The translations under genes were made by a program, and so were the position numbers. Under the pieces are notes generated by a model, which worked only from the letters and a program-made list of their open reading frames with translations, was not told the origin of the DNA and ran no database searches. Positions 24,061 through 33,051 of a DNA stretch of 64,000 nt are shown here, piece after piece. Positions within the stretch are counted from its first letter, which is position 1. Each line of letters begins with the position of its first letter. The DNA is taken from NCBI RefSeq assembly GCF_002197985.1, contig NZ_NBYK01000001.1, forward strand, positions 729,191 to 793,190. The letters run 5' to 3'. Source of the stretch: Halopseudomonas aestusnigri. Lineage in GTDB: Bacteria > Pseudomonadota > Gammaproteobacteria > Pseudomonadales > Pseudomonadaceae.

Positions 24061-24184
24061 GGATATATCCTTGTTTCACAGGCAAAGGCAGGCAGTTTAG
24101 CACCGTCGCCAGACGGGTGGGTAACGTCGGAGTGACGGCAGCATAAGGTGGTCGGAAAGCTGGGGTATGGGGGCAGTGAGGTCG

Positions 24185-24209
24185 GCCGGCCGAGCTTGGC
24201 TCGGCCGGC
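24185..24209. terminator. GC-rich hairpin between the Aer-like gene and glmS
   Basis: An 11-bp perfect inverted repeat (GCCGGCCGAGC / GCTCGGCCGGC) with a TTG loop has no T-run on either strand. It lies just past the 3' end of the chemoreceptor gene, upstream of glmS. Its arms resemble the GGCCGAGC / GCTCGGCC hairpins in the array at 31.5 kb. Confidence 0.45.
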
Positions 24210-24227
24210 GCTGGCTGGGCTGGCTGA

Positions 24228-28887: not shown

Positions 28888-28964
28888 TGGTCGGAGCGAC
28901 TGGAATCGAACCAGCGACCTTCTCGTCCCGAACGAGACGCGCTACCAGGCTGCGCTACGCTCCG
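28888..28964 (-). tRNA. tRNA-Pro, anticodon CGG
   Basis: Read on the minus strand, a full cloverleaf of 77 nt is seen. The acceptor stem is CGGAGCG / CGCTCCG, followed by the D arm with AGCCTGGTAG. The anticodon stem is TCTCG / CGAGA with loop TTCGGGA (anticodon CGG), and the T arm includes GGTTCGATTCC. The CCA end is encoded. It reads CCG codons. No other tRNA is next to it. Confidence 0.96.
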
Positions 28965-29729: not shown

Positions 29730-30269
29730 ATGAGCTGCTCACCTGATACTCCCTTTGCTGCCCTTGGCATCGCCGTGCTGACCGTCAGCGACACCCGTAC
29801 CCTGGAAACGGATACCTCTGGCCAACTGCTGGTGGACAGTCTGACCGCTGCCGGCCATCGTTTGGCCGATCGCCAACTGCTGCCCGACGACCGTTATCAG
29901 ATGCGCGCACTGGTGTCGGCCTGGATCGCAGACCCGGCAGTTGAGGTGGTGTTGATCACCGGTGGCACCGGCTTTACCGGCCGTGACAGCACCCCTGAGG
30001 CCATCGCGCCGCTGCTGGACAAGCAGGTCGATGGCTTTGGTGAGCTGTTCCGTCAGGTGTCCTATGAAGATATCGGCACGTCCACGCTGCAGTCCCGCGC
30101 GCTGGCTGGCTTGGCCAACCGCACGCTGGTGGTCTGCATGCCGGGCTCATCCAATGCCTGCCGTACCGCGTGGACGCGGATTCTCGAAACCCAGCTGGAC
30201 AGCCGCACCCGCCCGTGCAATTTCGTGCAGCATCTGGGCAATCCGGACCAGGACGGTCGCCGCGCATGA
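29730..30269 (+). CDS. moaB: Molybdenum cofactor biosynthesis protein B
   Basis: A 179-residue MogA/MoaB-family protein acting in molybdopterin adenylylation. The binding motif [14 protein letters not shown] is near residues 77-90, and [11 protein letters not shown] follows in the last third. The ATG with AAGGA about nine bases upstream is preferred; a longer frame begins 13 codons earlier. The stop overlaps the moeA start by four bases (ATGA), indicating coupled translation. Confidence 0.94.
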
Positions 30270-31471
30270 GCCTGATGCCGGTTGCCGAGGCCCTGCAGCG
30301 ACTGCTCGCCAGCGCGGCCGCCCATCAGCAGCCCGTGCGGGTGTTGTCGCTGACCGATGCGCTGGGCCAGGTTCTGGCCGAGCCGGTCTGTTCTGCCATC
30401 GACGTACCGCCCTGGGACAACAGTGCGATGGACGGTTACGCGCTGGCCGAGGCTGATCTGGCGCAGGCGATGGCTGATGGCCTGCCGGTCAGTCAACGCA
30501 TCACCGCCGGGGTTGCGCCGGCGGCGCTGCAACCTGGCACCTGCGTACGCATCTTTACCGGTGCACCCTTGCCTGCTGGCGCCAATGCTGTGCAGATGCA
30601 GGAGAATGCCGAGCCGCTGGCGGATGGCCGGGTGCGCCTGCTGGAACCGGTGGCTGCAGGCGACAACGTCAGACGCCAAGCGCAGGACGTTGTTGCCGGT
30701 CAGCCGTTGCTGGCCGCCGGAACCCGGCTGCGGCCGCAGGATCTGGGGGTGATTGCCTCGGTTGGGATAGATCAGGTCAGGGTGCGCAAGCCGCTGCGAG
30801 TAGCAGTGGTATCGACCGGGGATGAGCTGGTCGAACCGGGACAGCCGCTGAGCCCCGGGCAGATCTACAACAGCAATCGCTTCACCCTGATCGGTCTGCT
30901 GCAGGGGCTGGAGCAGACGGTGATCGACGCCGGCATACTGCCGGACGATCTCGATGCCACCCGCAGCCGGTTGCAGCAATTGGCAGAGCAGGCCGACGTG
31001 ATCATTTCCTCCGGCGGGGTGTCGGTCGGTGAGGCGGATTGCCTCGGGCAGGCGTTGCGCGAGGCCGGTGAGGTCGCTCTGTGGAAGCTGGCGATCAAAC
31101 CGGGCAAGCCGTTTACGCTGGGGCATTACGCCGGTGTACCCGTGCTCGGTCTGCCCGGAAATCCGGCGGCAACGCTGGTCACGTTTTTGCTGCTGGTGCG
31201 CCCCTATCTGTTGACTCGCCTTGGCGCAGCGGAGGTGGCCGCGCCCGCCTATACCTTGCCTTCCGGGTTCCCCTGGAGCCGCGCTGGCAGTCGTGAGGAG
31301 TACCTGCGTGCGCATGTCGAAGACGGCCGCGTAATGCTGTCGGGCAATCAAAGCTCCGGTGTGCTCAGCAGCGCCAGTCGCGCCAGTGGCCTGTTACGGG
31401 TGCCAGCCGGGCAAACCTTCAGCCCCGGTGATCTGGTCGCGTTTCTGCCATTCTCGGGCCTGCTTGGCTGA
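30266..31471 (+). CDS. moeA: Molybdopterin molybdenumtransferase
   Basis: A 401-residue enzyme that inserts molybdate into adenylylated molybdopterin. It contains the N-terminal PPWDNSAMDGYAL segment, the central VSTGDELVEPG and SSGGVSVGE binding motifs, the PGLPGNPAA-like segment (VLGLPGNPAATLV) and the C-terminal beta domain. The start ATG overlaps the moaB stop. The tandem repeat array begins within 30 bp of the stop. Confidence 0.95.
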   Translation: MSLMPVAEALQRLLASAAAHQQPVRVLSLTDALGQVLAEPVCSAIDVPPWDNSAMDGYALAEADLAQAMADGLPVSQRITAGVAPAALQPGTCVRIFTGAPLPAGANAVQMQENAEPLADGRVRLLEPVAAGDNVRRQAQDVVAGQPLLAAGTRLRPQDLGVIASVGIDQVRVRKPLRVAVVSTGDELVEPGQPLSPGQIYNSNRFTLIGLLQGLEQTVIDAGILPDDLDATRSRLQQLAEQADVIISSGGVSVGEADCLGQALREAGEVALWKLAIKPGKPFTLGHYAGVPVLGLPGNPAATLVTFLLLVRPYLLTRLGAAEVAAPAYTLPSGFPWSRAGSREEYLRAHVEDGRVMLSGNQSSGVLSSASRASGLLRVPAGQTFSPGDLVAFLPFSGLLG

Positions 31472-31497
31472 GTGGAAGACAAGATGCTGTCTGGAAA

Positions 31498-32010
31498 GAC
31501 CGAGCTCCTGCTCGGCCGTGGGTTGGCGCACAGGTCCGCCGGTCGAGCGGGAGTTCGACCCTCCCGTAGTCTGCATTTTCCGGAAAGGCCGAGCTCCTAC
31601 TCGGCCATGGGGTGGCGCACAGGTCCGCCGGTCGAGCGGGAGCTCGACCCTCCCGTAGTCTGCGTTTTCCGGGAAGGCCGAGCTCCTGCTCGGCCATGGG
31701 TTGGCGCACGGGGCTGCCAGTAGAGCGGAAGCCGACCCTCCCGTAGTCTGCATTTTCCGGGAAGGCCGAGCTCCTGCTCGGCCATGGGTTGGCGCACAGG
31801 TCCGCCGGTCGAGCGGAAGCCGGCCCTTCCGTAGTCTGCGTTTTCCGGGAAGGCCGAGTTCCTGCTCGGCCATGGTTTGGCACACAGGTCTGCCAGTCGA
31901 GCGGGAGCTCGACCCTCCCGGAGACTGCGATTTTCGGGAAGGCCGAGCTCCTGCTCGGCCATGGTTTGGCACACAGGTCTGCCTATCGAGCGGGAGCCGA
32001 ACTTCCCGGC
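31498..32010. repeat. Tandem array of six 88-89 bp units with internal hairpins
   Basis: Copies begin at about 31500, 31589, 31678, 31766, 31854 and 31943 (spacing 89, 89, 88, 88, 89). Each starts with a hairpin GGCCGAGC-TCCT-GCTCGGCC. Some copies carry a second hairpin, GGTCGAGC-GGGA-GCTCGACC, followed by a TCCCGTAGTCTGC box. The first hairpin stays paired in all six copies, partly through wobble changes. The second is intact or nearly so in copies 1, 2 and 5 and decayed in 3, 4 and 6. Spacing is not a multiple of three, so long reading frames through it are not genes. No direct-repeat/spacer structure is present. Confidence 0.92.
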
Positions 32011-32193
32011 GCTGAAAGACCACACTCCAGCGTGGCCCGTGCCGTTGCCCGTTCGGCGGCCCTCTGCGGCTGATACCGGGCTATTCCTTGATGCTTCAGA
32101 TGAAAATCAGCGTTTCTGATCTGGATACGCTGAAGTGGTTTTTTACATATTTTGTTACATGTATGATCTGGTCGTATTCAAATTCATTCTCAA
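32011..32193. other. Leader region before the efe operon
   Basis: Non-coding in my reading. It contains a TTTTTACATATTTTG ... TATGAT stretch (32140-32167) that can be read as -35 and -10 boxes 16 bp apart. A Fur-like site overlaps its end. CTTCAG/CTGAAG arms near 32093-32135 could form a loose hairpin. Confidence 0.4.
32178..32192 (+). promoter_or_regulatory. Candidate Fur box at the efeU start
   Basis: TCAAATTCATTCTCA matches the 7-1-7 Fur motif at 10 of 14 positions, with a strong right half (ATTCTCA). It lies just downstream of the putative -10 box and right before efeU, an iron-uptake gene where Fur control is expected. Confidence 0.45.
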
Positions 32194-32208
32194 ATGCGAC
32201 TGATTTCC

Positions 32209-33051
32209 ATGCTTGTACCTTTCCTGATCATGCTGCGCGAAGGCCTCGAGGCTGCGCTGATCGTTGGCATCATCGCCAGCTACCTCCGTCAGACCGGGCG
32301 TGCCGCCTGGATGCCGGTTATCTGGACCGGCATTTTCCTCGCTGTCACATTAGCGCTGCTCGGTGGCGCGGTCCTGCAGTTCGTCAGCGCCGAGTTTCCC
32401 CAGCGTCAGCAGGAGATGTTTGAAGCGGCTGTCGGTTTGATTGCCGTCGGCGTGCTGACCTGGATGGTGTTCTGGATGCGGCGCGCGTCGCAGGGGCTGC
32501 GCAGTGAGCTGACTGGCGCGCTGGACCAAGCGTTTCAGGCCGGCCAGGGGCAAACCTGGGCGTTGATCGGCATGGTCTTTCTGGCGGTTGCCCGTGAGGG
32601 GCTTGAGTCGGTGTTCTTCTTGCTGGCCGTGTTTCAGCAGGGGCGGGGCACCGGCGCGCCGCTGGGGGCACTGCTTGGCGTTCTATGCTCGGTGCTGGGC
32701 GGTTGGGCGTTCTATCGTGGCAGCCTGCGCTTGAACCTGAAACACTTTTTCCGTGGCACCGGCCTGTTCATTCTGCTGGTGGCTGCTGGTTTGTTCTCGG
32801 GAGCGGTACGTGCATTGCACGAGGCGGGCCTGTGGAATCACGGCCAACGCATTGTCTTCGATCTGAGCGAATGGCTGCCGCTGGATACCCCGCTGGGCAG
32901 CCTGTTTGCCGGTATTTTCGGCTATCAGCCTGCGCCCAGTGTCAGTGAAGTCGTCGCCTATCTCGGCTTCTTGCTGATCACCCTGTTCTTCTTCTTCCGA
33001 CCCGGTACTGCGCAGCTCGCTAGACCTGCCGCAGCGCGGGTTGGTGGTTGA
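32209..33051 (+). CDS. efeU: Ferrous iron permease EfeU (FTR1 family)
   Basis: A 280-residue inner membrane permease with about seven spans. Two REGLE iron-binding motifs are seen, MLREGLEAALIVG near residue 9 and VAREGLESVFF in the middle. The segment EAGLWNHGQR near residue 210 also matches E. coli EfeU. I place the start at MLVPFLIMLREG by comparison with the E. coli protein; an in-frame ATG lies five codons earlier (32194). No strong ribosome site is present before either. It is the first gene of efeU-efeO-efeB-efeM. Confidence 0.93.
   Translation: MLVPFLIMLREGLEAALIVGIIASYLRQTGRAAWMPVIWTGIFLAVTLALLGGAVLQFVSAEFPQRQQEMFEAAVGLIAVGVLTWMVFWMRRASQGLRSELTGALDQAFQAGQGQTWALIGMVFLAVAREGLESVFFLLAVFQQGRGTGAPLGALLGVLCSVLGGWAFYRGSLRLNLKHFFRGTGLFILLVAAGLFSGAVRALHEAGLWNHGQRIVFDLSEWLPLDTPLGSLFAGIFGYQPAPSVSEVVAYLGFLLITLFFFFRPGTAQLARPAAARVGG

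Follow-up and report, generated by a model that had tools for sequence, protein, structure and literature searches.

Between the moeA and efeU genes of Halopseudomonas aestusnigri lies a tandem array of six repeat units, which is very probably a cluster of REPIN-like doublets, that is, non-autonomous mobile DNA once moved by a RAYT-type HUH/tyrosine transposase. The array is located in a 64,000-nucleotide stretch (the window) within contig C1 of the 3.83-Mb genome, which is assembled in 30 contigs. It is known in kind, as a tandem REPIN/BIME cluster, and is a variant in that it fails the GT[AG]G foot test: its units are REPIN-like doublets that have GGA-type feet and belong with a RAYT clade. 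A six-unit example joins the tandem REPIN clusters already known, with one decayed copy in a sister species and empty sites in four further species. A RAYT-linked REPIN-like cluster was not named in a preliminary description of this DNA and explains the array better than the readings given there. We found no published work naming Halopseudomonas together with REPs.

Structure of the array

The array consists of six units of 88-89 bp each, arranged head to tail on the plus strand, with moeA upstream and efeU downstream. TRF called it at positions 31496-32008 with a period of 89, 5.8 copies, 89% matches and a score of 766, so that the six tandem units first described are real. Covariance model R1 also gave six matches here, of 62-87 bits, three of the six units having gone into building the model. 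Pfam and NCBIfam agree on the neighbours, which had been named correctly. The moeA gene (30170-31471, plus strand) contains the Pfam domains MoeA_N, MoCF_biosynth and MoeA_C, and in NCBIfam only the domain model TIGR00177 was above its cut-off, other matches being below. The efeU gene, for an FTR1/EfeU iron permease (32194-33051, plus strand), is above the cut-off of NCBIfam NF041756 and has the Pfam FTR1 domain. The first hairpin begins 26 bp past the end of the moeA stop codon, and efeU starts 186 bp downstream of the array.

Each unit contains a pair of inverted, similar palindromes of about 26 nt. Hairpin 2 read on the opposite strand resembles hairpin 1 (GGGAAGGCCGAGCTCCTGCTCGGCC and GGGAGGGTCGAGCTCCCGCTCGACC, by sequence reading), so the unit is a single inverted doublet plus a spacer of about 14 bp. 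The stems are 8 bp and the loop is 4 nt, like the palindromic stem and short loop of a canonical REP. Pattern search, model R1 and pairing count place the doublet of A1 at 31492-31566 (hairpin 1 at 31498-31517, hairpin 2 at 31541-31560) and that of A2 at 31581-31655 (hairpins at 31587-31606 and 31630-31649). Both hairpins are also present in A5 (31846-31920; 31852-31871 and 31895-31914). A3 (31670-31743), A4 (31758-31831) and the shortened last unit A6 (31935-32008) have hairpin 1 at 31676-31695, 31764-31783 and 31941-31960, respectively, while their hairpin 2, which carries a shared deletion, is broken in A3 and A6 and weakened in A4. The hairpin starts are 43 bp apart in the three array units where the pattern search detected both hairpins, and 42-43 bp apart in all 13 doublets where both were found (3 in the array, 10 dispersed), with a linker that diverges. 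If up to 3 mismatches are allowed, the window contains 7 matches to the 20-nt first hairpin, compared with 0.01 expected in shuffles; these are the six first hairpins and one second hairpin on the other strand, and a chance origin of the repeated hairpin is excluded.

The pairing was counted unit by unit. The first hairpin had been described as keeping its pairing in all six units; this holds fully for four (8 of 8 pairs), and A1 and A2 have 7 of 8. The second hairpin is intact or nearly so in three units, as stated (8 of 8 in A1 and A2, 7 of 8 in A5), and has 3 to 5 of 8 pairs in A3, A4 and A6, where three separate decays are doubtful. Since these three units carry an identical single-base deletion (GAGCTCGA to GAGCCGA), the loss is probably one event spread by duplication. 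Selection on the first hairpin only, which the decay had seemed to hint at, does not follow: of the 11 dispersed full doublets, 10 have a fully paired hairpin 1 and 10 a fully paired hairpin 2, so the equal retention and the shared deletion together give no sign of special selection on hairpin 1. A box thought to be common to all units (TCCCGTAGTCTGC) is unaltered in A1-A3, while A4 differs from it by one change and A5 by two, and A6 lacks it. An alignment of 13 copies gave no covariation above that of column shuffles (235 of 500 reached the observed score), because the stems hardly vary. Sliding the pairing partner lowered pairing from 92% to 28-46%, which is weak support, as the structure was drawn from the same sequences.

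A single-copy relative of the hairpin arm had been proposed at 24185-24209. It scored 16.7 bits (E 0.1) with the family model as against 62-87 bits for the array units, and the hairpin at 24182-24209 was ruled out as a family member. The same place has a perfect GC-rich hairpin, GCCGGCCGAGC-TTG-GCTCGGCCGGC, at window positions 24182-24227, just past the end of a minus-strand ORF (stop 24228) that is chemoreceptor-like by a reading of its translation.

Four doublets folded as DNA gave z values of -3.2 to -4.1, and a 551-nt stretch over the array folded far better than its shuffles (z -9.3). Such folding, and a first hairpin so soon after the moeA stop codon, would suit a regulatory RNA element in the moeA 3' UTR, whose stacked hairpins stop exonucleases or read-through into efeU. 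REPs are reported, in the part of PMC12306157 cited here, as exoribonuclease barriers, and as translation regulators if located 15 nt or less from a stop codon. However, the distance of 26 exceeds those 15 nt, any inverted-repeat DNA folds strongly, and the array is not conserved between sister species. A scan of 31300-32300 for intrinsic terminators (GC-rich hairpin plus T run) gave 0 sites, which also speaks against the transcription stop proposed earlier, and a simple scan around the array gave no promoter. We consider the RNA element unlikely. Rfam had no match at the array, its sole match in the window above the gathering score being a tRNA at 28891-28964.

Most or all of the array is crossed by three minus-strand ORFs (142-209 aa) and one plus-strand ORF (104 aa), as a protein-coding minisatellite would be. 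These ORFs overlap each other on both strands and in several frames, the alternation of 88 and 89 bp shifts the frame from unit to unit, and GC-rich inverted repeats would produce such ORFs mechanically; on the overlaps and frame shifts we judged a coding minisatellite extremely improbable. At 5 of 12 sites, namely the array and the dispersed sites C21, C20, C7d and C17, the crude ORF caller predicts an ORF that overlaps the element, and we read these ORFs as spurious or over-extended. The earlier reading of a structured, non-coding tandem array is upheld, and the REPIN-like cluster is the form of it that we prefer.

Dispersed copies and the same site in relatives

The doublet is dispersed. 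A DNA search of the H. aestusnigri genome found 10 places besides the array. Model R1, built from 13 doublets of which 3 were from the array, found at least 18 places at E <= 0.001, namely the 6 array units, 11 dispersed full doublets and 1 partial one; this search scored 150 of 5,451 candidates, and 13 of the 18 places had built the model. The question of dispersal raised by the preliminary description is thus answered by eleven other genome sites, counting two neighbouring doublets on C7 as one site, the C8 doublet with its extra hairpin as one, and the partial doublet as C7d. Like REPINs and BIMEs, the doublets have dispersed extragenic copies and are repeated in tandem together with flanking bases; the copy number is low for a REP family. 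On C8 (L012, 2267-2372) three hairpins at an exact 43-bp spacing make up a doublet and one extra hairpin; a GC-rich hairpin in the adjacent gap is close by. Another dispersed repeat, about 200 bp long (L106, 1290-1520; L005 flanks near C5:10195) occurs at dozens of places in genomes G000, G033 and G002; it adjoins one doublet, and stretches there are masked as N.

Nine of the eleven dispersed sites are located 30 bp or less from a stop codon, compared with 16% of the intergenic positions of the window (P 3e-6), both figures resting on crude ORF calls of at least 100 aa. A placement at gene ends, which had been raised as a question, therefore holds for most sites. C7d was counted as near a stop by its clear hairpin, its model match overlapping the ORF end. 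The two sites off gene ends are C15, at 58 bp from a stop codon, and C5b, beside a masked stretch.

Array units have a mean identity of 88% to each other and 75% to ten dispersed copies, which are 79% identical among themselves (the eleventh, C15, is outside this set). As the units are closer to each other than to the dispersed copies, the array appears to have grown in place.

Strong relatives of EfeU are present in 9 of 37 genomes of the genus, and that of H. oceani is 98% identical to the H. aestusnigri protein. The moeA-efeU gap of H. oceani contains a single doublet, which is decayed (26 bits, E 0.002 when 173 kb was searched), with 8 of 8 pairs in the first hairpin and 5 of 8 in the second. 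Its identity to the array units is only 59-65%, so the case for homology is made by its position, by hairpin 1 and by the TTCCCG end. In four further species (G033, G016, G002 and G031) the moeA-efeU gap, with moeA recognised by eye, has no doublet. Copy number at this site, which we had been advised to compare, therefore differs between species: six here, one decayed in H. oceani and none in the four others. Another gene lies upstream of efeU in G009 and G012, where there was no model match, and in G037, which has a doublet of a type of its own.

At the DNA level the right flank of the array is 85% identical to that of H. oceani and efeU 94%. The divergence of the flank is close to the mean divergence among the array units (12%), which suggests that the duplications are not recent. 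The site at C1:458397 has a doublet also in H. oceani, and its flanks are 47-48 bp apart in G033 and G002 as against 201 bp in the query; the C5 locus has doublets common to all four species. Some insertions are thus old and others lineage-specific.

From these comparisons we propose that a single doublet inserted just behind the moeA stop codon in the common ancestor with H. oceani. In the lineage of the window, the doublet and its spacer of about 14 bp would then have multiplied into six head-to-tail units, whether through slippage, unequal exchange or RAYT-dependent copying, so that the enzyme may have been unnecessary for this step, while H. oceani would have been left with one decayed copy. 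The tandem growth is suggested by the similarity of the units. Single-strand-based movement by a RAYT would be expected from the biochemistry of other RAYTs, as far as it is presented in PMC8266576.

Model R1 was also run on 29 genomes (H. aestusnigri, 18 others of the genus and 10 of other genera in the order) and matched in 15, none of them among the 10 from other genera. In a separate set of 18 further genomes of the genus it matched in 14. Up to 150 candidates were scored per genome in both sets. Many of the matches in the genus are related but distinct doublets of 50-65 bits. When 84,980 species genomes, a set that may leave out that of H. aestusnigri, were scanned for the exact pattern, four stretches were returned, from a Pseudomonas sp. 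MAG, P. abyssi, H. oceani and P. mendocina EF27, of which the last has four tandem matches. Five other species of Halopseudomonas (G005, G009, G010, G039 and G041) have related doublets in tandem arrays, with periods and copy numbers that include 89 x4.7, 88 x8, 84 x7.8, 106 x5.8 and 126 x5; two are at 88-89.

Recurrence of tandem arrays in the genus and the constant hairpin spacing would also be expected of a selected protein-binding array, with evenly spaced topological sites between moeA and the efe genes, like BIME-2 (gyrase) or BIME-1 (IHF) of E. coli. BIME-2 tandem doublets are reported as strong gyrase binders in the section of PMC2817692 used here. A mobile doublet itself explains the spacing equally, however, and neither the interspecies copy numbers given above nor the loss of the second hairpin in three of six units fits sites kept for binding, which makes such an array quite improbable. 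A present role as a structured 3' UTR or a protein-binding array is possible but unsupported, given that there is no terminator, that copy number is not conserved and that 3 of 6 second hairpins are broken. Any such role, as a structured moeA 3' UTR or a weak roadblock, would be incidental to a cluster of REPIN-like doublets and not the reason for its existence.

RAYT genes linked to the doublet

RAYT model NF047646 matched in 34 of the 37 genus genomes, above its cut-off in 31. H. aestusnigri has four RAYTs, two of them above the cut-off. The RAYT of P. mendocina EF27 has an open frame of 202 codons with intact HUH and Y..NP motifs, and the same doublet flanks it on both sides: a four-unit tandem array lies 11 bp past the stop codon and one doublet lies upstream. 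These five doublets score 79-95 bits with R1, similar to the dispersed copies of H. aestusnigri. The same REP on both RAYT flanks (REPtron) is thus found in P. mendocina EF27, and is not found at r659 (L019, 2628-3278, minus strand), the relative of the EF27 RAYT in H. aestusnigri.

R1 matched at E <= 0.01 at 9 of 20 distinct loci examined from the EF27-type RAYT clade, a tenth (L072) having E 0.035. The 32 other RAYT loci gave one match (L016), 3 kb from its gene. Fisher's test of clade against other loci gave 4.6e-5 without the L016 match and 3.5e-4 with it, for loci that were the best-scoring ones returned and chosen extras, mostly with flanks of 1.5-2 kb and some cut by contig ends. At eight of the nine clade loci with matches the doublets are related to those of the array and not the same (about 22-54 bits).

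The examined flanks of the four H. aestusnigri RAYTs, of which the C16 gene is at a contig end, have no such doublet except 3 kb from the C20 gene. A link of the array to this C20 RAYT (L016, 5610-6310) was ruled out, as other palindromes flank that gene. These palindromes (GTTCCCACGCTCTGCGTGGGAAC) are a second, unrelated REP-like family in the genome. The best-scoring RAYT of H. aestusnigri belongs to another family (L097, C1:824908-825345) and has one in-frame TGA.

The r659 gene (C1:659759, outside the window) adjoins a PF00459-domain gene, which we take to be cysQ-like, in H. aestusnigri and in six other species, and in 6 of these 7 genomes a VanZ-like gene is adjacent as well. All seven orthologues (L019, L088, L089, L090, L091, L092 and L093) have another residue in place of the catalytic tyrosine of Y..NP, and five have also lost one histidine of HUH. 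Both motifs are kept in the 13 other clade members aligned. Pairwise dN/dS among five of the seven is 0.07-0.23, a rough estimate since dS is above 1 in 9 of 10 pairs, and the tyrosine-less RAYT seems to be kept under purifying selection. The dS between H. aestusnigri and H. oceani is 1.46 for r659 as against 0.26 for efeU, which counts against simple vertical descent, and the G033 orthologue has an in-frame stop. A search of titles, which was not exhaustive, found none on RAYTs with a lost catalytic tyrosine. Syntenic orthologues of this kind, mostly with an open frame, bear on the role that RAYTs and REPINs have in their hosts.

As far as the assembly shows, H. aestusnigri seems to be without an active enzyme for the doublet. 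As its only RAYT of the clade has no catalytic tyrosine, movement would now have stopped in this genome and the array is probably a relict. Lack of an active enzyme would fit the low copy number and the decay.

The GGA-type foot and known REP systems

Canonical REPs are described in PMC3686654 and PMC6006769, in the portions cited, as having a 5' GT[AG]G tetranucleotide at the stem or 0-2 nt from it. None of the 34 REPs in the 17 full doublets of H. aestusnigri (6 in the array, 11 dispersed) has a GT[AG]G foot; the foot is GGA in 33 of 34, and [GT]GGA in 28. The guide-contact motif was obtained at 40 of 52 RAYT loci. The r659 group is among the 12 without it, because the motif asks for Y..NP. 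In an alignment to 4er8, the position of Gln95 in E. coli TnpAREP is occupied at these 40 loci by Gln (27 loci), Met (9), His (3) or Ala (1), and the RAYTs linked to doublets like those of the array mostly have Met or His at this guide-contacting position.

Among loci with recurrent flanking hairpins, GT[AG]G feet are present at 6 of 10 Gln loci versus 0 of 10 Met or His loci, and [GT]GGA feet at 9 of 10 Met or His loci versus 2 of 10 Gln loci; L072 has neither foot. Fisher's test for GT[AG]G between the two groups gave about 0.01 (hand arithmetic), and since the loci are related the association may be a single change. The [GT]GGA foot is carried by most hairpins at five Met loci, by half or fewer at three His loci and by 1 of 9 at one locus.

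A RAYT-REP lineage with a switched guide, having a [GT]GGA foot and Met, His or Ala in place of Gln95, in part of which, H. aestusnigri included, a tyrosine-less RAYT beside the cysQ-like gene would have turned into a non-cutting REP-binding protein acting on relict REPINs, is an explanation that we put forward tentatively. The GGA-type foot may instead be an eroded old foot, the canonical Pseudomonas GTGG-GA with two spacer bases also containing GGGA. The changed foot and the changed guide-contact residue make the RAYT guide code testable.

Like GT[AG]G-type REPs and their RAYT/TnpAREP, as characterised in the passages of PMC6006769 and PMC8266576 used here, the present system has an HUH/Tyr enzyme, hairpin DNA flanking its gene and dispersed copies. 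It differs from them in having no GT[AG]G foot and in having Met, His or (once) Ala at the Gln95 position. Structures without GT[AG]G are reported for subclass 2.6 and class 3 (CnGA foot), and the cited text of PMC6006769 states that none were found for 2.1 and 2.3. The TIRYT/TIRtron elements (PMC3733652) are an earlier description of RAYT-like genes whose flanking repeats, in dimers or clusters, are not GTAG-REPs. According to the part of that paper considered here, their TIRs are unrelated to REPs and some carry GGGGWSAS, our comparison being with the description only, and CGTC repeats are not linked to transposase genes.

Like E. coli BIME-2, which flanks the E. coli RAYT gene itself, the array has several intergenic doublets in tandem, although sequence, stem form and foot differ from those given in the excerpts of PMC2817692 and PMC3686654 consulted. 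The tandem REPIN clusters of Pseudomonas fluorescens SBW25 (Bertels and Rainey 2011, PMC3116915), as presented in the sections cited, are likewise inverted REP doublets arranged head to tail with flanking bases, extragenic and RAYT-linked, whereas the foot here is GGA-type. The largest ordered SBW25 cluster given there has four REPINs and one REP, compared with six doublets here, and the SBW25 neighbour distances peak at 71 and 110 bp, compared with 42-43 bp between the hairpin starts of the H. aestusnigri doublets.
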